64,000 bases of DNA from an uncultured Desulfatitalea sp. GTDB lineage: Bacteria; Desulfobacterota; Desulfobacteria; Desulfobacterales; Desulfosarcinaceae. Below the pieces are notes generated by a model that saw only the letters and a list, made by a program, of their open reading frames with translations, had not been told where the DNA came from and ran no database searches. Shown here in pieces: positions 44 to 12,698 of this stretch (position 1 is the stretch's first letter; every line of letters starts with the position of its first letter). The position numbers and the translations under genes were made by a program. Location of the stretch: assembly GCA_937868765.1 (NCBI GenBank), contig CALMNL010000007.1, forward strand, positions 62,001 through 126,000, given 5' to 3'.

Positions 44-751
44 ATGGGGAGGTCCAGCCATCTTTATGAATCGCCGGCCTTGAGGGCCGTCACCGGTCCC
101 GCCATCCGTCCGGGCGGGTTGGCCCTGACCGAGCGGGCGCTGGCCCTCTGCCGCCTGCCCATGGATGCCCTGGTACTGGATGTGGGCTGCGGCAGCGGCG
201 CCACCGTGGCCCACCTGCGTCACTGCCACGGATTGCGGGCCATCGGCCTGGACCTATCTCCGACGCTGTTGGCCGAAGGACGGCGGCTGGACGCTGCGCT
301 GCCCCTCCTCCAGGCACGGGCCGAACGGCTGCCGTTGCGGGATGCCCGGCTGACCGCGATTTTCAGCGAATGCCTGCTGTCGCTGGTGGCCGATCCGGCT
401 GCCGCCCTGGCCGACTGGCATCGCGTCCTGGCCGCCGACGGTTTTCTGGTGGTGTCGGATCTTTACGCCCGCGCCGGTCGATGGGCCCAGCAAGCTTGTG
501 CTTCCGCGCCCGGGTGCCTGGCCGGGGCCGTGCCGCGGGACCTGCTTCTGGCGCGCATGCAGGCAGCCGGATTCGATGTGCTGCTCTGGGAAGATCATAC
601 CCCCCTGCTCAAGCAGTTGGCCGCCCGCCTGGTGTGGGCGCACGGCTCCCTGGCCGCCTTCTGGCAGGCGGCCGGCGCGGGATGCGGTGGCGGAATCCCG
701 GGCGGCGGGCGGCCGGGATATTACTTGATGGTGGCCCGGAAAACAGGCTGA
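44..751 (+). CDS. SAM-dependent methyltransferase (DVU_1556-like)
   Basis: Class I methyltransferase of 235 residues. The SAM-binding motif I reads LDVGCGSGATV at about residues 45-56, followed by the acidic loop GLDLSP, and a post-motif SECLLSLV typical of Methyltransf_11 proteins. The ATG at 44 has GGAG at 31-34. It is the first gene of a tight + strand series ending near 6.9 kb. From memory, the order methyltransferase, C_GCAxxG_C_C protein, radical SAM, CoA ligase, XdhC, NTP transferase matches Desulfovibrio DVU_1556 to DVU_1551, where the methyltransferase and the radical SAM protein are paired. The methyl acceptor is unknown. The gene is separated from the next by about 53 bases. Family assignment is firm; the cluster role is inferred. 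Confidence 0.8.
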   Translation: MGRSSHLYESPALRAVTGPAIRPGGLALTERALALCRLPMDALVLDVGCGSGATVAHLRHCHGLRAIGLDLSPTLLAEGRRLDAALPLLQARAERLPLRDARLTAIFSECLLSLVADPAAALADWHRVLAADGFLVVSDLYARAGRWAQQACASAPGCLAGAVPRDLLLARMQAAGFDVLLWEDHTPLLKQLAARLVWAHGSLAAFWQAAGAGCGGGIPGGGRPGYYLMVARKTG

Positions 752-804
752 GGAGTGCTGACTTCCCATATCGACAGGTCAGGCTCCGGAAGAGGAAGCA
801 GACC

Positions 805-1239
805 ATGGACGATCTCATGCTGCGCATGCTGCGCTGGGGACAACAAGGCTACAGCTGTGCCCAAATACTCCTGCTGCTGGCTTTGGAGGCGCGGGGGGAA
901 TCCAATCCGGGGCTGGTGCGCGCCATGGCCGGGCTGGCGTATGGCTGCGGGGCCGGGCGGGCCGCTTGCGGCGCGCTGACCGGCGGCTGCTGCCTGCTGG
1001 CCTATCTGGCGGTGGAAGTGGACGCCGCCGACCGTCCCGTGGAGTGTTTGCCCAGCATGCTCCAGGAACTCTCCGACTGGTTCGAGGCACGCGCGGGGCA
1101 GGCCCACGGCGACATTACCTGCGAAGTGATCGTGGGCGAGAGCGGTCCGGCCGCATCCCGCCATATCTGCGGCGCCATCGTGGCCGAAACCTATGGCAAG
1201 GCCATGGAGATTCTAACGGCCAGCGGCGTGGCCCCATGA
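805..1239 (+). CDS. C_GCAxxG_C_C family protein (DVU_1555-like)
   Basis: Small Cys-rich protein of 144 residues from the ATG at 805, preceded by AGAGGAAG. Conserved features of the C_GCAxxG_C_C family are visible: YSCAQ near the N-terminus, GCGAGRAACGALTGGC around residues 48-63, and C-terminal cysteines in DITCEV and HICGAIV. These proteins are thought to bind a metal or redox group, but their reaction is not established. The frame is open upstream, but the family similarity and RBS start here. The stop overlaps the start of the radical SAM gene (ATGA), implying translational coupling. Confidence 0.8.
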   Translation: MDDLMLRMLRWGQQGYSCAQILLLLALEARGESNPGLVRAMAGLAYGCGAGRAACGALTGGCCLLAYLAVEVDAADRPVECLPSMLQELSDWFEARAGQAHGDITCEVIVGESGPAASRHICGAIVAETYGKAMEILTASGVAP

Positions 1240-2597
1240 CGAAATTTGCCACCCAAAGCCTCTGTCCCGTCTGCCTGGCGCGCATTCCGGCCCATCGGGT
1301 CGTCCGCGGGGAGGATCTCTTCCTGAAGAAGCATTGCCGCGCCCACGGGTGGTTCCAGACGCCCATCTGGCGAGGGGCGCCGGCGATAGGGGCGTGGCAG
1401 CGGCCCAAGATTCCCACCCGGCCGGTCCTGGCCGGACATGCGGTGGAAAAGGGGTGCCCTTTCGACTGCGGACTGTGTCCGGAGCACCGGCAGCGGTCGT
1501 GCACGGTGATCCTGGAGGTGACCCGGCGGTGCGACCTTTGCTGCCCGGTGTGCTATGCCGGTTCCGGCCCCAGGGGCCGTGACCCCGCCGTGGAAGAGAT
1601 CGCCGGCTGGTTCGAAGGGCTGCGCCGCGCCGGCCGGGGGGCCAACATCCAGCTCTCCGGCGGCGAACCGACCCTGCGCGACGATTTGCCCGCGCTGGTG
1701 GCCCTGGGCCGCCAGGCCGGCTTCGGGTTCATCCAGATCAACACCAACGGCCTGCGCCTGGCCGCCGAACCCGACTATGCCGCGGCCCTGCGGTCGGCCG
1801 GGGCCGCCTCGATCTTTTTGCAGTTCGACGGCGTCACCGACACGGTCTATCGGAAGCTGCGCGGTCGGGCCCTGTGGGCTGTCAAACAGGCCGCCGTCGC
1901 TGCCTGCGCCCGGGCCGGCCTGGGGGTGGTGCTGGTGCCCACCCTGGTGCCGGGGGTCAATATCGATCAGGTGGGCCGCATTTTAGACCAGGCCGTGGCC
2001 TGGTATCCCACGGTGCGGGGCGTCCATTTCCAGCCGGTGAGCTATTTCGGCCGCCATCCGGGACCGCCGACCGACAAGGATCGCCTGACCCTGCCCGAGT
2101 TGATGCGCGCCGTCGAAACCCAGAGCGGGGGGCGCTTTAAGGCCGATCATTTCCGGCCGCCGGAGTGCGAGCATGCCCTCTGTTCATTCCATGCCCAGTA
2201 CCTGCTTTCCGAAGAGGGGCGGCCGCGACCCCTGCACCCCCTGCCCATGGCGCCAGCGGAAAAACAGCCCATTCGCGCCGAAGAGGGGGCGGCCCGGGCC
2301 ATCGGCGCGGTGGCGCGCCAGTGGGCCGGCCCGTCGTCCTGCCGGGGAGGCAGCTGCTGCGGCGCGGCCACCGTTTCCGCCGGGAACGCCCAGGCCATGA
2401 CCCTGGACGAATTCCTGGCGGCGGCCCGTTCCCGTACCTTTTCGGTGTCGGCCATGGCCTTCCAGGATGTCTGGAACCTCGATCTGGAGCGGGTGCAGGG
2501 GTGTTGCATCCATGTCCTGGCGGCCGACGGCCGTTTGATTCCCTTTTGTCTCTACAACCTGACGGCGGCCGACGGCCGTCCCCTTTACCGGCCATGA
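1236..2597 (+). CDS. Radical SAM protein (DVU_1554/TrsS-like)
   Basis: Radical SAM enzyme of 453 residues starting at the ATG that overlaps the previous stop. An N-terminal zinc-ribbon-like part has CPVC and KHCRAHG, then GCPFDCGLCPEH and the cluster motif RRCDLCCPVCYAG (CX3CX2C), then QLSGGEPTLRDD, the SAM-contacting GGE motif. The pre-motif CPFDCGLCPEH is typical of the branch related to archaeal pterin methylase MJ0619. A C-terminal GGSCCGAAT may bind a further cluster. Orthologues in this gene order are sometimes selenoproteins; no in-frame UGA occurs here, so this is the cysteine form. Its substrate is unknown. It is coupled by overlaps to both neighbours. Confidence 0.8.
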   Translation: MTKFATQSLCPVCLARIPAHRVVRGEDLFLKKHCRAHGWFQTPIWRGAPAIGAWQRPKIPTRPVLAGHAVEKGCPFDCGLCPEHRQRSCTVILEVTRRCDLCCPVCYAGSGPRGRDPAVEEIAGWFEGLRRAGRGANIQLSGGEPTLRDDLPALVALGRQAGFGFIQINTNGLRLAAEPDYAAALRSAGAASIFLQFDGVTDTVYRKLRGRALWAVKQAAVAACARAGLGVVLVPTLVPGVNIDQVGRILDQAVAWYPTVRGVHFQPVSYFGRHPGPPTDKDRLTLPELMRAVETQSGGRFKADHFRPPECEHALCSFHAQYLLSEEGRPRPLHPLPMAPAEKQPIRAEEGAARAIGAVARQWAGPSSCRGGSCCGAATVSAGNAQAMTLDEFLAAARSRTFSVSAMAFQDVWNLDLERVQGCCIHVLAADGRLIPFCLYNLTAADGRPLYRP

Positions 2598-3946
2598 CCA
2601 AGGTAGCGCGCACACCGCTGGAGAACTGGATCGCCGCCCGCATCGGATTGAAAGCGGGGCAGGGGCTGACACCGGCGCGCCTGGCCGCCTGGCAGCTGGC
2701 GCGCCTCAACGAGACCCTGGCCCATGCCCACGCCAACAGCGCATTCTACCGGGATCAATGGGGCGGCCGGGCCGCGCCGCGGCTGGCGCGTCTGGATGCC
2801 GTCACCGGCCTGCCGTTCACTTCGGCCGAAGCCCTGCGCCGGGACCCCCTGCAGTTGCTGTGCGTCTCCCAGAGCGCGGTGGCCCGGGTGGTCACCCTGC
2901 GCACGTCGGGCACCACCGGAGATCCCAAGCGGATCTTCTTCACTGCAGAAGATCTCGAGGCGACCATCGATTTCTTCCACCACGGCATGTCCACCCTGGT
3001 CGGCCCCGGAGATCGGGTGCTGATCCTGTTGCCCGGCGAGTTGCCCGACAGCGTGGGCGATCTGCTGCAAAAGGGCCTGGCCCGCCTGGGCGCACAGGGC
3101 ATCGTCCACGGCCCGGTGTGCGATCCGGCCCTGACGCTCCGGGCCATCGCGGATCAGCGCATCCGCTGCCTGGTGGGCATTCCCGTGCAGGTGCTGGCCC
3201 TGGCGCGCCACCCCGACGGCGCGCGCATCGGCTGCGAGACCCTGCGCAGCGTGCTGCTCAGCACCGACTACGTGCCTGATGCCGTAGCGACCGCCCTCCG
3301 GGAGAGTTGGGGCTGCCAGGTGTTCCAACACTATGGCATGACCGAGATGGGGTTCGGCGGCGGGGTGGCCTGTGCCGCCCTTTCGGGCTATCATCTGCGC
3401 GAGGCCGACCTCTTCTTCGAGATCGTCGACCCGGTCAGCGGCCAGCCGGCGGGCAACGGCCGCACCGGCGAAGTGGTGGTGACCACCCTGACCCGGCGGG
3501 CCATGCCATTGATCCGCTGCCGCACCGGCGACCTGGCGGCCTGGATCGACGCGCCCTGCCCCTGCGGCACCTTGCTGCGCCGCATGGCCTGGGTGCGGGG
3601 CAGGCGGCAGGAAGCGCGCCGATTGGCCGACGGCATCCTGCTCGAGATGCGCGCCCTGGATGAAGCGCTGTTTGCCCTGCCCGAAGTGATTGATTATCAG
3701 GCGGCTTTGTGGCAGGCGGACGATGGCGACCATCTGCGGCTGACCCTGGTTTGCGCCAGGGCCCATGAGCCCCTGGCCTCCCTGGCGGCCGCCGCGCTTT
3801 CAAAGGTGCCGGCCATCCGGGCCGCGGCGGCCAACGGCAGTTTGCGGGTGGATCCGCCGATCGTGGAAGTGCGGCTCCACAGCGTCCAGCCGGCGACCAA
3901 GCGGATGATCGACGACCAGAGAAATAGAAAGTATGCGGTGAATTGA
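2594..3946 (+). CDS. AMP-dependent CoA ligase, phenylacetate-CoA ligase type (DVU_1553-like)
   Basis: Adenylate-forming enzyme of 450 residues, similar in length and motifs to phenylacetate-CoA ligases (PaaK). The ATP-binding loop TLRTSGTTGDPKRIFF lies at about residues 95-110, the FQHYGMTEMGFGG motif at about 243-255, and the TGDLAAW motif at about 309. Those enzymes activate a carboxylate via acyl-AMP to the CoA thioester. The start ATG overlaps the stop of the radical SAM gene (ATGA). In this cluster the ligase may activate an unknown acid or adenylate a cofactor intermediate; nothing in the sequence shows its substrate. Confidence 0.8.
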   Translation: MTKVARTPLENWIAARIGLKAGQGLTPARLAAWQLARLNETLAHAHANSAFYRDQWGGRAAPRLARLDAVTGLPFTSAEALRRDPLQLLCVSQSAVARVVTLRTSGTTGDPKRIFFTAEDLEATIDFFHHGMSTLVGPGDRVLILLPGELPDSVGDLLQKGLARLGAQGIVHGPVCDPALTLRAIADQRIRCLVGIPVQVLALARHPDGARIGCETLRSVLLSTDYVPDAVATALRESWGCQVFQHYGMTEMGFGGGVACAALSGYHLREADLFFEIVDPVSGQPAGNGRTGEVVVTTLTRRAMPLIRCRTGDLAAWIDAPCPCGTLLRRMAWVRGRRQEARRLADGILLEMRALDEALFALPEVIDYQAALWQADDGDHLRLTLVCARAHEPLASLAAAALSKVPAIRAAAANGSLRVDPPIVEVRLHSVQPATKRMIDDQRNRKYAVN

Positions 3947-3968
3947 ATAGCCCAAAGGACATCGTTGC

Positions 3969-5018
3969 ATGAAGAGCTTAGCGGAAACTGCGTGCCAATG
4001 GTTGCGCCAAGGCGATAACCTGGTCCTGGCCAAAATCGTCAGCCGGCAAGGTTCCACCCCGCGCGCCGCCGGCACCCAGATGGTGGTGGCCCGCGGCGGC
4101 CGGATTGCCGGCACCATCGGCGGCGGCCTGTTGGAGGCCAAGGTGATGGCCCAGTGCGAGTCGCTGCTCGACGGCGGCGTCGGGCGGTGGCTGCGTTTCG
4201 ATCTGAACTACACCGAGGTGGCCGGTTCGGACATGATCTGCGGCGGCGGCCTGGAGGTGGTGGTGCTGCCCGTCGCGGCCAATGCCGAAAACACGGCGAT
4301 CTTCGATCGCTGGTGCCGTCTGGAGGCGGACGGCGGCAAGGGGCAGCTGATCATCGCCCTTCAAAAGGAGGGAGAAGCCATCCGCCAATGGCACCTCGCC
4401 CTGGCGGAAAACGACGGCCGCCGCCTCGGCCATCTGCCGCTTTCTGAGGCCGCCCTGGCAGCGGTGGTGCAAGGCGCCCAGGCGGCCGCCGTCATGCGGA
4501 CCAGCCACTTGGAAGCGTATGACCTGATCGTGGAACCGATCCGCAAACCCAAGACCGCTTTTCTGCTCGGCGCCGGACACGTGGCCCAGCCCACGGCCCA
4601 TATGGCGGCCCTGGTGGGATTCCGGGTGGTGGTGCTCGACGACCGGGCGGCCTTTGCCAACCCGGCGCGCTTTCCCGATGCCCACGCGGTGCGCGTGCTG
4701 CCTGACTTCGAGCGCCCCTTCGAAGGCTTGACCGTGGACCGGGATGGCTTTATCGTCATCGTCACCCGCGGCCACCTGCACGACAAAGTCGCCCTGGCCC
4801 AGGCCTTGAAGACCGAAGCGGCCTACATCGGCATGATCGGCAGCCGGCGCAAGCGCGACCAGATCTTCCACCGCCTGCGGACCGAAGGGTTCGGCGACGC
4901 CGATCTCCAGCGGGTGCACTCGCCCATCGGCCTGAACATCGGCGCCGAGACGCCGGAAGAGATCGCGGTGAGCATCGTGGCGGAGATGATACAGATCAAG
5001 AGTGGTATTGGGTTTTAG
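3969..5018 (+). CDS. XdhC/CoxI family protein (DVU_1552-like)
   Basis: XdhC-type protein of 349 residues. The N-terminal XdhC/CoxI domain shows STPRAAGTQMVV and GTIGGGLLEAKV (residues 29-60). The C-terminal Rossmann domain has FLLGAGHVAQPTAHMAALVG (about 197-216) and the closing GAETPEEIAVSIVAEM. XdhC proteins bind and sulfurate the molybdenum cofactor before insertion into xanthine dehydrogenase-type hydroxylases. The gene begins 22 bases after the CoA ligase. Its last codons run into a short tandem heptamer repeat. A Mo-hydroxylase target is not in the window and must lie elsewhere. Confidence 0.85.
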   Translation: MKSLAETACQWLRQGDNLVLAKIVSRQGSTPRAAGTQMVVARGGRIAGTIGGGLLEAKVMAQCESLLDGGVGRWLRFDLNYTEVAGSDMICGGGLEVVVLPVAANAENTAIFDRWCRLEADGGKGQLIIALQKEGEAIRQWHLALAENDGRRLGHLPLSEAALAAVVQGAQAAAVMRTSHLEAYDLIVEPIRKPKTAFLLGAGHVAQPTAHMAALVGFRVVVLDDRAAFANPARFPDAHAVRVLPDFERPFEGLTVDRDGFIVIVTRGHLHDKVALAQALKTEAAYIGMIGSRRKRDQIFHRLRTEGFGDADLQRVHSPIGLNIGAETPEEIAVSIVAEMIQIKSGIGF

Positions 5019-5035
5019 GTGTCAGGTCTTAGGTG
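5015..5035 (+). repeat. Tandem heptamer repeat, three units
   Basis: Three consecutive 7-base units TTAGGTG, TCAGGTC, TTAGGTG span the stop codon of the xdhC-like gene. A degenerate pair of the same units (TTAGGTT, TCAGGGG) lies at 10-23, just upstream of the first gene of the cluster. The role is unknown. Confidence 0.6.
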
Positions 5036-5064
5036 AAGGTTTGGGCCGATTTGGAAGAAGGGTT

Positions 5065-6207
5065 ATGGCAAGCGAGCAGCATTTGAGCGCCGTCATCCTG
5101 GCCGCCGGGTTTTCCCGGCGCATGGGCCGTTTCAAGCCGCTGCTGCCGCTGGGCGAGACGACGGTGGTGGAGCGGGTGGTGTCGCTTTATCGGACCGTGG
5201 GCATCGCCGATATTTGCGTCGTGACGGGGCATGGGGCCGACGCGCTGCGCCCAGTGATCGAGCCGATGGGGGTGCGCTGCGTGACCAACCCGGACTACCC
5301 CCGGGGCATGTTCTCCTCGCTGACCACTGGGGTCGCGGCATTGCCGGCCGGGGTGCGGGGCTTTTTCCTGCACCCGGTGGACGTGCCGCTGGTCAGGGCC
5401 AGCACCGTGGTCGCCCTGATGGCCGCTTTCAAAGCGGAGGCGCCCCAGGTGTGCCATCCGTGCTTCGACAGCCGGCGCGGCCATCCGCCCCTGGTGGCCG
5501 CCGAACTGGCGCCGCTGATCCTGGGATGGCGCGGGGAGGGCGGTTTAAGGGCCTTTTGGGAAAACCACCTGCTGGCAGTCAGAGAGGTCCCCGTGGCCGA
5601 CGCTGCCATCCTTCATGATCTGGACACCGAAGCCGACTTGCTGCGGATGACCGAGCGGCTGGCCACAGAAGACCTTCCCACCGAAGAAGAGTGCCGGGTG
5701 CTCATGACCCGGGTGGCGGCGGTGCCCGAACCCGTCTGGCGACACTGCCGGGCCGTGGCCGAAGTGGCCCTGGCCTTGGCGGCGGGTGCCAACCGGGGTG
5801 GCGCCGGTTTGGACTTGGACCTGGTGCGGGCCGCCGGTCTGGTGCACGACATCGCCAAGCGCCGGGCCGAGCATGCCGCGGCCGGCGCCGAACTGCTGGC
5901 GGCGCTGGACTATCCCCGGGTGGCGTACGCCGTGGGCGTGCACATGGATATCGAGACCGACCCCGAACAACCCCTGGACGAAGCCCAGCTGGTTTTCCTG
6001 GCCGACAAACTGATCCAGGGGGATCGCCTGGCCGGCCTGGACGAACGCCTGGCGCGGAAAATGGCCAAGTACGGCGGCGATCCCCGGGCCCGGGCCGCCA
6101 TCGCCCGCCGGTTCGAAACCGCTGGCTGGATCGCGAGCAAGGTGGAGCGGATCACCGGTCGCTCCCTAGAAGCCCTGCTGCCCCGCAGCCATCGCGCGCA
6201 GGAGTGA
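5065..6207 (+). CDS. MobA-like nucleotidyltransferase fused to HD domain (DVU_1551-like)
   Basis: Fusion of 380 residues. Residues about 8-190 form a MobA/MocA-type NTP transferase with LAAGFSRRMGRFKPLLPLG, the nucleotide and magnesium-binding signature, and HPVDVPLV. Residues about 215-370 form an HD domain with VHDIAKRRAEHAA and MDIETDPEQPLDEAQLVFLADKL-type metal motifs. MocA-type enzymes attach CMP to molybdopterin for hydroxylases; the HD part is a putative phosphohydrolase. The ATG at 5065 is preceded by GGAAGAAGG. Its place after xdhC supports a role in cofactor maturation. The fused HD domain is characteristic of this cluster rather than of classical MocA. Confidence 0.8.
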   Translation: MASEQHLSAVILAAGFSRRMGRFKPLLPLGETTVVERVVSLYRTVGIADICVVTGHGADALRPVIEPMGVRCVTNPDYPRGMFSSLTTGVAALPAGVRGFFLHPVDVPLVRASTVVALMAAFKAEAPQVCHPCFDSRRGHPPLVAAELAPLILGWRGEGGLRAFWENHLLAVREVPVADAAILHDLDTEADLLRMTERLATEDLPTEEECRVLMTRVAAVPEPVWRHCRAVAEVALALAAGANRGGAGLDLDLVRAAGLVHDIAKRRAEHAAAGAELLAALDYPRVAYAVGVHMDIETDPEQPLDEAQLVFLADKLIQGDRLAGLDERLARKMAKYGGDPRARAAIARRFETAGWIASKVERITGRSLEALLPRSHRAQE

Positions 6208-6214
6208 ACGCCAG

Positions 6215-6868
6215 ATGCCTGCCGCCGCCAATAGCATATCGGAGCGCTGCATTTATCTGCTCCGGCATGCGGAACCCCTGGTCGAACCCGGCGGCCGGCG
6301 TTACATCGGCCAGACCGACCCGCCCCTGAGCCCCTTCGGCATCGGCCAGGCCCAGCGCTGGCGGGAGTACTTCGGGAACAAAGCCATAGAATTCTTCTTC
6401 AGCAGTGATCTGCAGCGCGCGGCCCACACGGCCCGCATCATCGCCGAAGGGCGGCATGCGGAAGTGCTGCTCCTGCCCGAACTGCGGGAGCTGAATCTGG
6501 GCGCCTGGGAGGGGATGACCTTCGATGAAGTGCGGTGCCGGGACCCCGAAGGCTTTGCCCGACGCGGCCGGGATCCGGTTCACTATCGGCCGACGGGCGG
6601 CGAATCTTTCGACGAATTGAGGCGGCGGGCGGTGCCGGCCTTCGAACGGATCATGGCCCAGGCCACGGGCCGGGTCCTGGTGGTGGGGCACGCCGGCGTC
6701 AACCGCGTCATCCTCTGCCACCTGCTGGGGATGCCCCTGGCCCATCTCTTCCGCCTGGGTCAGGATCATGCCGGGCTCAACGTGGTGGAAATCCTGCCGT
6801 CCGGCCTCCGCGTGCGGGCCGTCAATCGGATTTTAGAATTTGAAGTGCATCAGATATCGGCGATCTAA
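6215..6868 (+). CDS. Histidine phosphatase family protein (CobC/phosphoglycerate mutase-like)
   Basis: Protein of 217 residues with the phosphohistidine motif YLLRHAEP at about residues 13-20, LSPFGIGQAQRW, the SSDLQRAAHTA arginine motif, and the second catalytic histidine in VVGHAGVNR. This fits cytosolic histidine phosphatases such as alpha-ribazole phosphatase (CobC). The ATG is 7 bases after the nucleotidyltransferase stop, so it is the last gene of the cofactor-type cluster. The substrate may be a phosphorylated cofactor intermediate, but cobalamin genes are absent here, so the CobC name is not assigned. Confidence 0.8.
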   Translation: MPAAANSISERCIYLLRHAEPLVEPGGRRYIGQTDPPLSPFGIGQAQRWREYFGNKAIEFFFSSDLQRAAHTARIIAEGRHAEVLLLPELRELNLGAWEGMTFDEVRCRDPEGFARRGRDPVHYRPTGGESFDELRRRAVPAFERIMAQATGRVLVVGHAGVNRVILCHLLGMPLAHLFRLGQDHAGLNVVEILPSGLRVRAVNRILEFEVHQISAI

Positions 6869-6996
6869 AAAGCGAGGAATGCAAAAGGATTGTAAAAAAC
6901 GTTGCCGATGGTTTTGCAATTCCTTGAATTTTGAAACGATTCCGCCCGTGGTAGCCTCTGCTCAATACGATCAACACTTCAATGAGGGAGGCTACC

Positions 6997-8025
6997 ATGC
7001 GAAAAATGCAGTCCGTTCTTACCCTACTCATCACCCTGGCCGCTGCGGCGTTCGGCACCGTCGCCGCGGCGGACCCGGCACCCGCCCGGATCGCGCTTAA
7101 CCAGGAGTTGGAGCTATCCGGGCCATACCAATGCGAGAACCTTTCGGTGTTCCTGATTCACGGCCGGGAGAAGATTTCCGGCAAGAAGATCATGCCCCTG
7201 GCCGAGGCTCTGGAAAAGGGCCTGGTCACCGTGCATGAAACCGGCGACGTGAATCGCTTGAGCGCCCAGAACCACTCCAGAGACCACTACATCTACATCC
7301 AGTCCGGCGATATCGTGAAAGGCGGCCGCCAGGACCGCACCCTCGGTCAGGATATGCTGCTGCCGCCCAACTCCGGCAAGATCCCCCTGGACTCGTTCTG
7401 CGTGGAGCAGGGCCGCTGGAGCCAGCGGGGCCATGAGCAGGCGGGCACCTTTTCCGGATCGACCAAGCAGCTCAGCAGCAAAGAGCTGAAACTGGCGGCC
7501 AAGCAGGCCCGCTCCCAGGGAGCGGTGTGGAAGGCGGTGGCCGAGACCCAGGAGAAGCTCAGTCGGAAGGTGGGCAAGTCGGTGCGCAGCGACGCGTCGG
7601 CCACCAGCCTGCAGCTCACCCTGGAAGACAAAGCCGTGGAAGCACAGGCGGCCCGGTATATCCAAACCCTGCTGCCGGTGGGGCAGGCTGCCGAAGACGC
7701 CGTGGGCTTTGCCTACGCCATCGAAGGGCAATTGGCCGCGGTCGATCTTTACGGCAGCCCGGATCTTTTTCACAAGCTCTACCCCAAGCTCATCGATGCC
7801 GCCACCTCTGAAGCTGTAGTGGCGGTCGGCCAGGGCAAGCCCGGCGCCGCGCCCGATGCGGCGACCATAAAAAACCAGATTCTCTCGGCGTTGAAGGCCC
7901 CCCAGCGGGTGGAAGGGGGCGACGGCCACACCCGGCGCACCTATTCCGAGTCCAAAGAGCGCCACACCTTCGAGACTAGGGATGAGAAAGACCAGATGAT
8001 CCATCTCAATGTCATTCAAAAATAG
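6997..8025 (+). CDS. Exported ARPP-1/DUF6569-like protein
   Basis: Protein of 342 residues. The start at 6997 is chosen for the RBS GAGGGAG at 6984-6990. A Sec signal peptide follows (MRKMQSVLTLLITLAAAAFG, cleavage near AAADPA), so it is periplasmic or outer. The body has YIQSGDIVKGGRQDRTLGQD and FCVEQGRW, which I recognise from the ARPP-1/DUF6569 group. These proteins are of unknown biochemical function. It is monocistronic, between the histidine phosphatase and a strong hairpin. Assignment rests on motif recall, so the family is moderately sure and no function is claimed. Confidence 0.6.
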   Translation: MRKMQSVLTLLITLAAAAFGTVAAADPAPARIALNQELELSGPYQCENLSVFLIHGREKISGKKIMPLAEALEKGLVTVHETGDVNRLSAQNHSRDHYIYIQSGDIVKGGRQDRTLGQDMLLPPNSGKIPLDSFCVEQGRWSQRGHEQAGTFSGSTKQLSSKELKLAAKQARSQGAVWKAVAETQEKLSRKVGKSVRSDASATSLQLTLEDKAVEAQAARYIQTLLPVGQAAEDAVGFAYAIEGQLAAVDLYGSPDLFHKLYPKLIDAATSEAVVAVGQGKPGAAPDAATIKNQILSALKAPQRVEGGDGHTRRTYSESKERHTFETRDEKDQMIHLNVIQK

Positions 8026-8052
8026 ATCTCTTTAACAGCCTGTTGATTCAAT

Positions 8053-8104
8053 CCACCCGGCGGCGCACCGCCTCGAACCGGACGGCTGGTGCGCCGCCGG
8101 GTGG
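8053..8104 (+). terminator. Strong inverted repeat, likely terminator hairpin
   Basis: Perfect 17-base arms at 8053-8069 and 8088-8104 with an 18-base loop, about 28 bases after the stop of the ARPP-1-like gene. There is no T-tract, so it may stabilise the mRNA end or be Rho-assisted rather than a classical intrinsic terminator. Confidence 0.55.
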
Positions 8105-8236
8105 CGATGGCTGCAGAAAAAAGTTGCCCCCAAGAAACCAGATGTCGTTTTCGGTTTTAACGAATAAGTGCTAAGAATAACGCCAGATGACAGATGTGGC
8201 GGTGGGAACGGCCTTTTCGTATGCAGGAGCGACCCT

Positions 8237-9133
8237 ATGTTCTTCCCCGTATCAGGGATCGAGGTGAACCCCCTCATCCCATTTGTGGTGGCGTTCGTGG
8301 TTTCCTTCTTTACATCGATGGGCGGCGTCTCCGGAGCATTTTTGCTGCTTCCTTTTCAGGTAAGCGTCCTCGGGTATACCTCACCTTCGGTCAGCGGGAC
8401 GAATCAGGTCTTCAATATCGTGGCGATTCCCAGCGGCGTCTATCGCTTCTTCCGCGAAGGACGGATGTTGTGGCCTTTGACCTGGGCGGTGATTGTCGGC
8501 ACGTTGCCGGGCGTGATCATCGGCGCCTGGGTTCGCATTCAATATCTGCCGGAACCCAAAAAATTCAAAATGTTCGCAGGAACGGTGCTCTTATACATCG
8601 GCATCCGACTGCTTCTGGATGTGATCAAGAACAAGGAAGGGAAAAAAGCATCCACCAGCGACCGCGACCCAAGGCGCCATTCGGTCACGCAGGTTGCATC
8701 CACCTTTCGGAAAGTGACCTTCGCCTACGATCATGAGGATTATCAATTCTCACCGCTAATCGTGTGTCTGATATGCTTCCTGGTGGGGATTGTCGGCGGG
8801 ATATACGGTATCGGCGGCGGCGCGATCGTTGCCCCCTTTTTTGTGACCATCGTCGGTCTTCCGATATATGCCGTGGCTGGTGCCGCTCTGATGGGAACCT
8901 TCATCACCTCTGTGGCCGGCGTAGCTGTTTATCAGTTATTTTCTTTGATTTATACGCACACTGCCATCGCGCCGGATTGGATTTTGGGGGCCTTGTTTGG
9001 GGCCGGAGGATTTTTTGGGATGTATGCCGGGGCGCGGGCCCAGAAGCATGTGCCCGCAAGGATCATAAAGGGAATCCTGTGCGGATGCGTCTTATTCGTC
9101 TCAATTCAGTACATTGTCGGGTTTTTCAAATGA
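8237..9133 (+). CDS. TauE/SafE family permease
   Basis: Membrane protein of 298 residues with about eight hydrophobic segments. It shows the two internal-repeat signatures of the TauE/SafE family: SFFTSMGGVSGAFLLLPF in the first half and GIVGGIYGIGGGAIVAPFF in the second. Relatives export sulfite, sulfoacetate or other organosulfonates, or import anions. The start at 8237 has CAGGAG at 8224-8229. It is a single gene whose 3' end lies 22 bases from the convergent hybrid kinase. The substrate cannot be read from sequence. Confidence 0.85.
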   Translation: MFFPVSGIEVNPLIPFVVAFVVSFFTSMGGVSGAFLLLPFQVSVLGYTSPSVSGTNQVFNIVAIPSGVYRFFREGRMLWPLTWAVIVGTLPGVIIGAWVRIQYLPEPKKFKMFAGTVLLYIGIRLLLDVIKNKEGKKASTSDRDPRRHSVTQVASTFRKVTFAYDHEDYQFSPLIVCLICFLVGIVGGIYGIGGGAIVAPFFVTIVGLPIYAVAGAALMGTFITSVAGVAVYQLFSLIYTHTAIAPDWILGALFGAGGFFGMYAGARAQKHVPARIIKGILCGCVLFVSIQYIVGFFK

Positions 9134-9155
9134 ATCCCGGAATTGCTTCTCACTC

Positions 9156-12698
<3,543 letters not shown>

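Follow-up and report, generated by a model that had tools for sequence, protein, structure and literature searches.

Among the closest known systems for the genes considered here are two enzymes. Tes (GDGT-MAS, MJ0619; PDB entries 7TOL and 7TOM) is a radical S-adenosylmethionine (SAM) enzyme in which a rubredoxin-like site, an N-terminal auxiliary cluster, the radical SAM core, and a C-terminal auxiliary cluster follow one another. The available parts of PMC9433317 give the ligands of its rubredoxin, N-cluster, and radical SAM sites together with a labile methionine, Met439, and report that Met439 and Tyr459 are completely conserved in 1000 archaeal homologues. The aldehyde oxidoreductase (Mop) of Desulfovibrio gigas (1SIJ, 1VLB) was the first mononuclear molybdenum enzyme with a crystal structure, and its role and electron acceptor are only proposed, as far as the available text of PMC3877041 goes; flavodoxin is the acceptor put forward in excerpts of PMC3877041 and PMC10223205. 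In the same excerpts, the cofactor is a pyranopterin cytidine dinucleotide, the enzyme is not sulfurated (an oxo ligand replaces the sulfido ligand), and the native model, 1VLB, has a resolution of 1.28 Å. The locus compared with them here is a cluster of seven genes around the radical SAM (seleno)protein TrsS, at positions 44–6868 of a 64,000-nucleotide stretch of an uncultured Desulfatitalea sp. (assembly GCA_937868765.1, contig CALMNL010000007.1, positions 62,001 to 126,000), referred to in full as the window.

The cluster is the distal half of an operon of about ten genes. Window base 1 (G000:C7:62001) corresponds to position 12001 of L002, an upstream stretch of the same genome, which carries, on the strand of the window genes, (i) a MoCF-biosynthesis-domain protein (L002:5437-6459; no match in the NF0456xx set of this operon), (ii) a molybdopterin-dependent aldehyde oxidoreductase (L002:6639-9362; NF045668, 1692.9 bits, cut-off 1100), and (iii) a pyridine-nucleotide-disulfide/dicluster protein fused to a DVU_1557 domain (L002:9440-11995; NF045663, 1032 bits, cut-off 530; NF045645, 87 bits, cut-off 60), whose stop lies 48 bases before the start of the first window gene. 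The initial annotation reported no molybdenum hydroxylase beside the cluster. This is an artefact of the window edge: the window starts inside the operon, so a hydroxylase that stops 2.6 kb ahead of it only seemed absent. The oxidoreductase contains PF00111, PF01799, PF01315, PF02738, and PF20256, with no flavin adenine dinucleotide (FAD) domain among its Pfam matches; its NF045668 score, its two [2Fe-2S] and MoCoBD domains, and the lack of an FAD domain identify it as Mop-type. It is 68% identical to the D. gigas enzyme. MOD of D. desulfuricans (1DGJ) stands alongside D. gigas Mop among the closest known systems. The genome has one XdhC_C match and one MoCoBD_2 match, both inside the operon, a 1:1 pairing. 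The reading favored here, at a probability of roughly one half, is that the operon consists of two modules and that the oxidoreductase acts within a TrsS pathway, as a partner of TrsS rather than its target. Upstream of the operon, about 8 kb ahead of the window, lies a small minus-strand gene (L002:3971-4357) that by eye resembles a ModE-type DNA-binding domain.

All seven consecutive plus-strand genes of the initial annotation are present in the window, and six pass curated NCBIfam cut-offs. They encode a DVU_1556 family methyltransferase (44–751; NF045667, 255 bits, cut-off 155), a DVU_1555 family C-GCAxxG-C-C redox protein (805–1239; NF045669, 153 bits, cut-off 103), the Tes-like TrsS (1236–2597; NF045646, 651.9 bits, cut-off 490), a DVU_1553 family AMP-dependent (PaaK-like) ligase (2594–3946; NF045666, 471 bits, cut-off 300), an XdhC family aldehyde oxidoreductase maturation factor (3969–5018; NF045664, 408 bits, cut-off 350), a DVU_1551 family fusion of a MocA-like nucleoside triphosphate (NTP) transferase to an HD domain (5065–6207; NF045665, 434 bits, cut-off 315; PF12804 and PF01966), and a CobC-like histidine phosphatase (6215–6868; PF00300, 187 bits). 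The phosphatase is the exception to the cut-offs, its top NCBIfam match, TIGR03162, reaching 150 bits, under 162.9. Two junctions are 4-base overlaps (1236–1239 and 2594–2597). The DVU names of the initial annotation agree with the NCBIfam family names, which include DVU_1551, 1553, 1555, 1556, and 1557, and the presence of XdhC with a MocA-like NTP transferase is consistent with ordinary cofactor maturation.

The predicted tie between the cluster and a molybdenum hydroxylase is borne out by phylogenetic profiles. TrsS and the aldehyde oxidoreductase were scored against curated cut-offs in 247 genomes of the phylum, and TrsS also in 14 control genomes. Within the phylum, TrsS is above cut-off in 25 genomes, the oxidoreductase in 19, and both in 18; the one exception to this 18/19 pairing, G241, shows the oxidoreductase as contig-end pieces only. 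None of the 14 controls reaches the TrsS cut-off, and all 14 give weaker radical SAM matches. Seven phylum genomes have TrsS and no full oxidoreductase, and in one of these, G104, an oxidoreductase fragment adjoins the operon. Xanthine-oxidase-family genes below the cut-off (E ≤ 1e-150) occur in 17 further genomes, and because only G104 among them has TrsS, TrsS tracks the Mop type rather than the whole superfamily. The 129 Desulfovibrionaceae include 82 with the oxidoreductase, 77 with TrsS, and 76 with both; in three more (G325, G341, and G352), TrsS lies in pieces that are jointly above cut-off, raising the pairing to 79 of 82. The unpaired genomes are G295 (54% complete), G273 (84% complete), and G363, where the operon leaves the contig. 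For this family, the oxidoreductase query was a 309-residue part of the D. gigas protein (E ≤ 1e-100), which also picked up relatives of 55–56% identity in G295 and G315. In G309, G325, G327, G341, and G352, the TrsS frames span 675–743 residues, and their profile matches are either split into pieces or longer than usual, as if the genes held insertions.

Among the best 80 of 559 relatives from named genomes, the gene set recurs in Thermodesulfobacteriota, Bacillota, Chloroflexota, Pseudomonadota, and Acidobacteriota; these loci are not a random sample, many come from metagenome bins, and many contigs stop within the operon. Wherever a strong oxidoreductase and a dicluster gene occur together, they adjoin on one strand (70/70 loci, duplicate records included). 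The 106 unique loci with TrsS (at least 450 bits to a custom profile) include 73 with full context, defined as at least 7.5 kb upstream and at least 2.5 kb downstream of TrsS; the duplicates L167 and L155 are dropped from these 73 and kept in the dicluster-motif and adjacency counts. The 73 loci contain the oxidoreductase in 62 cases, the dicluster protein or its d91 domain in 71, the ligase in 70, the DVU_1557 protein in 70, the methyltransferase in 66, the C-GCAxxG-C-C protein in 64, the NTP transferase in 44, XdhC in 40, and the phosphatase in 40.

These genes divide according to the presence of the oxidoreductase. XdhC is found in 39 of the 62 full-context loci with an oxidoreductase and in one of the 11 without it by threshold, and that one, L129, holds an oxidoreductase fragment at the locus edge. 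The ten loci truly without an oxidoreductase have no XdhC, NTP transferase, phosphatase, or MoCF protein (absent from 10/10), and eight of them keep the ligase and the dicluster protein or d91. The methyltransferase remains in 7 of the 11 as compared with 59 of 62, and the C-GCAxxG-C-C protein in 5 of 11 as compared with 59 of 62. Since XdhC, the NTP transferase-HD protein, and the phosphatase vanish from loci without the oxidoreductase, they belong with that enzyme, and the rest with TrsS. The phosphatase is fused to the NTP transferase-HD protein in L132 and, by profile, in L168.

The initial annotation had named wide occurrence of the cluster in genomes lacking any XdhC-dependent hydroxylase as the finding that would count against its cofactor idea. 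Such genomes exist: a whole-genome search finds no MoCoBD_2 match at E ≤ 0.001 in six with TrsS (G075, G108, G131, G212, G039, and G247), five of which also have no XdhC_C match, G131 having one. Their occurrence is not wide, however, as the oxidoreductase adjoins 62 of the 73 loci judged. G212 is 85% and G108 90% complete, and the TrsS gene of G039 is broken; other MoCoBD_2 hydroxylases are present in G125 and G152. The locus of the Desulfovibrionaceae genome G247 (L195:7638-13316) carries two tandem TrsS-family genes, a ligase, and a DUF5714 gene, with an HGD-D gene preceding the TrsS pair.

Other redox systems take the place of the oxidoreductase at some loci. In L124 and L130, that place belongs to an AFOR-family gene, followed in L124 by a gene with weak, sub-threshold 4Fe-4S matches, MoeA, a d91-DVU_1557 fusion, the methyltransferase, TrsS, and the ligase, and in L130 by MoeA, a d91-DVU_1557 fusion, the methyltransferase, a C-GCAxxG-C-C gene, TrsS, and the ligase. 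The L124 protein scores 1003 bits to the benzoyl-CoA reductase BamB (4z3w) versus 218 to the aldehyde ferredoxin oxidoreductase 1aor, and its L130 relative scores 1362 bits to the L124 protein; in L119, a similar gene (815 bits to BamB) points away from the operon. In the TrsS tree, built by a quick method from rows of 400 to 560 residues (which leaves out L142 among others), L124, L130, and L176 form a fully supported group nested in the oxidoreductase-linked clade. In L083, HGD-D genes and an activase gene occupy the upstream position, with relatives likewise in L085; the top NCBIfam match of one of the L083 HGD-D genes is a double-cubane reductase at 208 bits, under the cut-off of 350. No oxidoreductase was seen in L083–L088 or L195, which together make up a side branch (support 90) adjoining the large clade (support 98). 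A general need of BamB for the TrsS core was considered and rejected: BamB-like genes (E ≤ 1e-120) occur in 65 of the 247 phylum genomes, only 5 of which have TrsS above cut-off, and because they are this common without it, TrsS is not a BamB factor.

That three unrelated redox systems (Mop at most loci, BamB-like proteins in L124 and L130, and HGD-D with activase in L083 and, by similarity, L085) share the upstream position could mean that they supply low-potential electrons, through the dicluster, DVU_1557, and C-GCAxxG-C-C proteins, to the three [4Fe-4S] clusters of TrsS, whose product would then be unrelated to aldehydes. Redox proteins do sit between these systems and TrsS, and all TrsS ligand positions are conserved. 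Radical SAM enzymes, however, normally use flavodoxin or ferredoxin, so that a dedicated supply of many genes would be unusual, and TrsS in L150, L142, and L164 has none of these redox genes within the flanks examined. Taken together, an electron-supply role appears quite unlikely.

D. gigas itself (G261, a 100% match to the first 309 residues of 1SIJ, a sequence shared by 11 PDB entries) carries the operon. Its locus, L186, contains in order the MoCF protein, the aldehyde oxidoreductase, a nitroreductase-family gene, the dicluster protein, the DVU_1557 protein, the methyltransferase, the C-GCAxxG-C-C protein, TrsS, the ligase, XdhC, and the phosphatase, the last being cut by the locus end; the NTP transferase was not seen within the 20 kb examined. 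The nitroreductase-family gene (PF00881; L186:11918-12571) stands between the oxidoreductase and the dicluster gene. D. gigas Mop, 68% identical to the product of the gene upstream of the window, comes from an organism with the same operon. The excerpts available treat Mop alone: the word "operon" is absent from PMC10223205, and the D. gigas genome paper mentions MOP only in passing. Lack of XdhC was considered as the reason for the non-sulfurated D. gigas enzyme and is ruled out by the XdhC gene in its operon. Eight genomes that lack XdhC at the operon locus (G076, G109, G138, G165, G190, G235, G014, and G052) have an XdhC_C match elsewhere.

The initial annotation had proposed that the radical SAM protein and the ligase carry out an unrecognised cofactor modification. 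No modified cofactor appears in the client enzyme of D. gigas, going by published descriptions in the parts available rather than by electron density. Because D. gigas has the operon and yet its crystallized enzyme is described with an ordinary cofactor, a stable extra modification of the cofactor by the operon is unlikely, a verdict that does not extend to a labile one or to one on another target; D. gigas and the TrsS genomes with no MoCoBD_2 hydroxylase match together weaken the idea. A related possibility is that the genes for the radical SAM protein, the ligase, the methyltransferase, and the Cys-rich protein serve the maturation of the oxidoreductase, through a labile or overlooked modification of cofactor or protein. 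The near-complete co-occurrence, the shared operon, the XdhC and MocA-like genes in the same cluster, and a protein in L140 that joins the NTP transferase-HD domains to TrsS (L140:3897-6395, one frame of 832 residues) speak for maturation. The plain pyranopterin cytidine dinucleotide described for D. gigas, the six TrsS genomes with no MoCoBD_2 match, and, in L124 and L130, the pairing of the module with a BamB-like enzyme from a different superfamily speak against it and render it unlikely, the partnership of the oxidoreductase with a TrsS pathway being preferred.

TrsS is a Tes-class protein. An AlphaFold2 model from an alignment of 70 sequences (mean pLDDT, the predicted local distance difference test score, 90.7) matches 7tol over its whole length with a TM-score of 0.80 (by query) at 31% identity. 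Full-length coverage of TrsS is limited to the two Tes entries among the 50 structure matches listed, the non-Tes matches lying at about 0.4. The order of metal sites is that of Tes, and each of its features has a counterpart in TrsS: the rubredoxin-like C-x2-C-x20-C-x2-H site (C10, C13, C34, and H37), the three cysteines and one histidine of [Fe4S4]N (C74, C78, C81, and H84), the CX3CX2C motif (C99, C103, and C106), the C-cluster cysteines (C316, C423, and C438), and the labile methionine (M407). These 15 positions do not vary in 101 TrsS sequences, apart from one sequence gapped at three. Fourteen of them align directly with 7tol, and C316 only via the Tes-like proteins of L071 and L072; C316, C423, and C438 are the presumed C-cluster ligands.

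TrsS is nevertheless distinct from Tes. Its score to the curated Tes model NF045702 is 320.5 bits, below the cut-off of 450, and at the position of Tes Tyr459 the 101 sequences have V (73), I (10), T (8), S (3), E (2), Q (2), C (2), or A (1) and never Tyr, which rules out that TrsS is Tes itself. The same position is Tyr in the Tes-like L071 and L072 and Glu in the more distant L069. In the model, the segment between C316 and M407 comprises a helix (348–363) and a low-confidence stretch. It contains a CC pair in 81 of 101 TrsS, which precedes the helix in most but follows it in the protein encoded in the window, and in L071 and L072 it has one Cys and no CC. The genes of L071 and L072 (G150 and G199) are bacterial, score about 340 bits to TrsS, have the Tes tyrosine, and lie beside genes that by eye resemble branched-chain ABC transporters. 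In L070 (G146; 560–10383), a tandem pair of more distant TrsS relatives is found near ketosynthase-, dehydratase-, and cysteine desulfurase-like genes; labels such as cysteine desulfurase, ABC transporter, and ketosynthase were assigned by eye wherever no family match is given.

The whole-length match to GDGT-MAS and the shared ligands raise the possibility that TrsS makes membrane-spanning or cross-linked lipids as Tes does, in which case the acyl chains would be supplied or capped by the ligase and methyltransferase. The missing tyrosine, which the Tes-like L071 and L072 retain, and the different, low-confidence, Cys-rich segment between the C-cluster ligands argue otherwise; the operon's own genes include no known lipid gene by the families found, and none was recognized by eye among the recurring neighbor families listed. 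Lipid synthesis is therefore considered very unlikely.

A 2026 review (PMC13188914) counts TrsS among the selenoprotein families and gives no selenocysteine (Sec) motif for it. No in-frame stop occurs in the window gene or in the above-cut-off TrsS matches listed from the phylum and Desulfovibrionaceae searches, and the Sec position was not located. The break in the L089 TrsS gene was rejected as a selenocysteine site, its halves being in different frames as in a frameshift; the split in L174 contains unknown bases (X).

The remaining members of the TrsS module are a ligase and redox proteins. At the adenylation motifs, K112 is kept in 99, E251 in 102, and D313 in 101 of 102 ligases, and the C-terminal Lys is present in 86 of 102. 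The closest PDB match is a phenylacetate-CoA ligase. The dicluster protein combines a GltD-like flavin/NAD domain, twin C-CC-CxxC motifs like those of the HdrB/HdrD-type CCG proteins, a d91 domain of no recognized fold (E 0.019 for its best match in the PDB), and, in this genome, the fused DVU_1557 domain; these fusions set it apart from the HdrB/HdrD proteins. The twin motifs are present in 74 of 76 full-length dicluster proteins and in all five short forms (L083–L085, L087, and L088), duplicate records included. Because an oxidoreductase without an FAD domain adjoins a protein with a GltD-like flavin/NAD domain and twin HdrB-type motifs, this flavo-dicluster protein is a natural candidate for its electron acceptor.

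The likeness of the ligase to phenylacetate-CoA ligase, together with the BamB-like and HGD-D-type genes at some loci, would also suit a plain catabolic route in which the oxidoreductase converts aldehydes, perhaps aromatic, to acids, the PaaK-like ligase converts the acids to CoA esters, and TrsS and the methyltransferase process one growth substrate. No β-oxidation or ring-cleavage gene was recognized by eye, though, among the 25 commonest neighbor families listed (most of them not compared with a family library), and some ligases have no C-terminal lid, making plain catabolism a distinctly doubtful account.

In the pathway proposed instead, module 1 (the aldehyde oxidoreductase, XdhC, the MocA-like NTP transferase-HD protein, the phosphatase, and the MoCF protein) would yield an ordinary Mop-type enzyme with an ordinary cytosine-dinucleotide cofactor, and module 2 (the HdrB-like dicluster protein with d91, the DVU_1557 protein, the methyltransferase, the C-GCAxxG-C-C protein, TrsS, and the PaaK-like ligase) would form a separate TrsS pathway. 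As all metal centers are kept, TrsS is expected to share the first steps of Tes: its 5′-deoxyadenosyl radical would abstract hydrogen from an unactivated carbon, leaving a carbon radical that a sulfide of the C-terminal [4Fe-4S] cluster would capture, by analogy with what is shown for Tes. The outcome could be a C-C or a C-S bond. The latter is thought more likely on account of the Cys-rich loop near the C-cluster ligands and of sulfur-transfer genes in a few operons, which point weakly to sulfur transfer: in L114, L129, and L180, the first gene detected upstream of TrsS encodes a class V aminotransferase (cysteine-desulfurase family), and in L151 the dicluster gene has a rhodanese gene upstream of it. 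The ligase may activate a carboxylate of substrate or product, and the methyltransferase may tailor it; the oxidoreductase would interconvert aldehyde and acid and hand electrons to the adjacent flavo-dicluster protein. A more specific and rather improbable version is that TrsS forms a C-S bond (selenium-assisted in the selenoprotein forms) at an unactivated carbon of an acyl substrate to give a new small thiol cofactor, whose disulfide the twin-CCG protein reduces, with the oxidoreductase, the BamB-like enzyme, or the HGD-D-type reductase feeding the system.

Several observations weigh against a TrsS pathway of this kind. With respect to the modules, a labile or lost modification would be invisible in crystals, and the oxidoreductase is present in so many full-context loci (62/73) that context leaves room for a maturation role in most genomes. 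The L140 fusion and a fusion of the phosphatase to the ligase in L129, seen by profile, blur the two modules; Sporomusa sp. KB1 has one TrsS operon with an oxidoreductase fragment (L114) and one without (L151), contrary to a clean split; and L124 and L130 come from metagenome bins that are labeled as different phyla. The operon, the co-occurrence, the two modules, the ligand conservation, and the D. gigas cluster are observed, and the chemistry, the step order, and the electron acceptor are inferred. The Tes M439A variant is still active in the available account (PMC9433317), so that conservation of the methionine alone is weak proof. The Cys-rich loop is not specific to TrsS (L069 has one, without CC), CC is missing in 20 of 101 TrsS, and its placement varies. 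Short C-termini occur in 10 of the 67 ligases in which the landmark was found, and seven of these, from Desulfovibrionaceae and family f23, are without the C-terminal lid, so that they may not be complete CoA ligases. No more than four loci showed sulfur-transfer genes at the positions given above (rhodanese genes were not sought systematically), six others (L090, L115, L126, L136, L147, and L166) have class V aminotransferase relatives at other positions, and these genes could serve molybdenum sulfuration.

As far as the literature search reached, the system is familiar to NCBI curators by family names and not as a pathway. NF045645, NF045646, and NF045663–NF045669 (DVU_1551–DVU_1557, TrsS, AOR-related XdhC, AOR, and diclust_near_Sec) cover the operon genes except the phosphatase and the MoCF protein, and the model names seen indicate no pathway. 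The search found no paper whose title or abstract describes the operon system. The main text of the Desulfovibrio vulgaris transposon paper does not mention the DVU155x genes, radical SAM, or XdhC and, in the part available, treats another, tungsten-dependent gene, DVU1179; "radical SAM" is not mentioned in a 2026 tungsten-enzyme survey. DVU_1559 is entered as aldehyde oxidoreductase in a proteomics table within the accessible part of PMC10920352.

The operon suggests that a textbook molybdenum enzyme accompanies a Tes-class radical SAM pathway. Some bacterial Tes relatives, whose role is left open in the available portion of PMC9433317, thereby gain a defined genetic context. If the thiol-cofactor version were true, the D. 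gigas aldehyde oxidoreductase would have as its physiological partner a thiol cofactor not yet described. The operon context of a Tes-class radical SAM protein, a ligase, and a flavo-dicluster protein makes the role and the electron acceptor of the D. gigas enzyme testable in sulfate reducers and acetogens.

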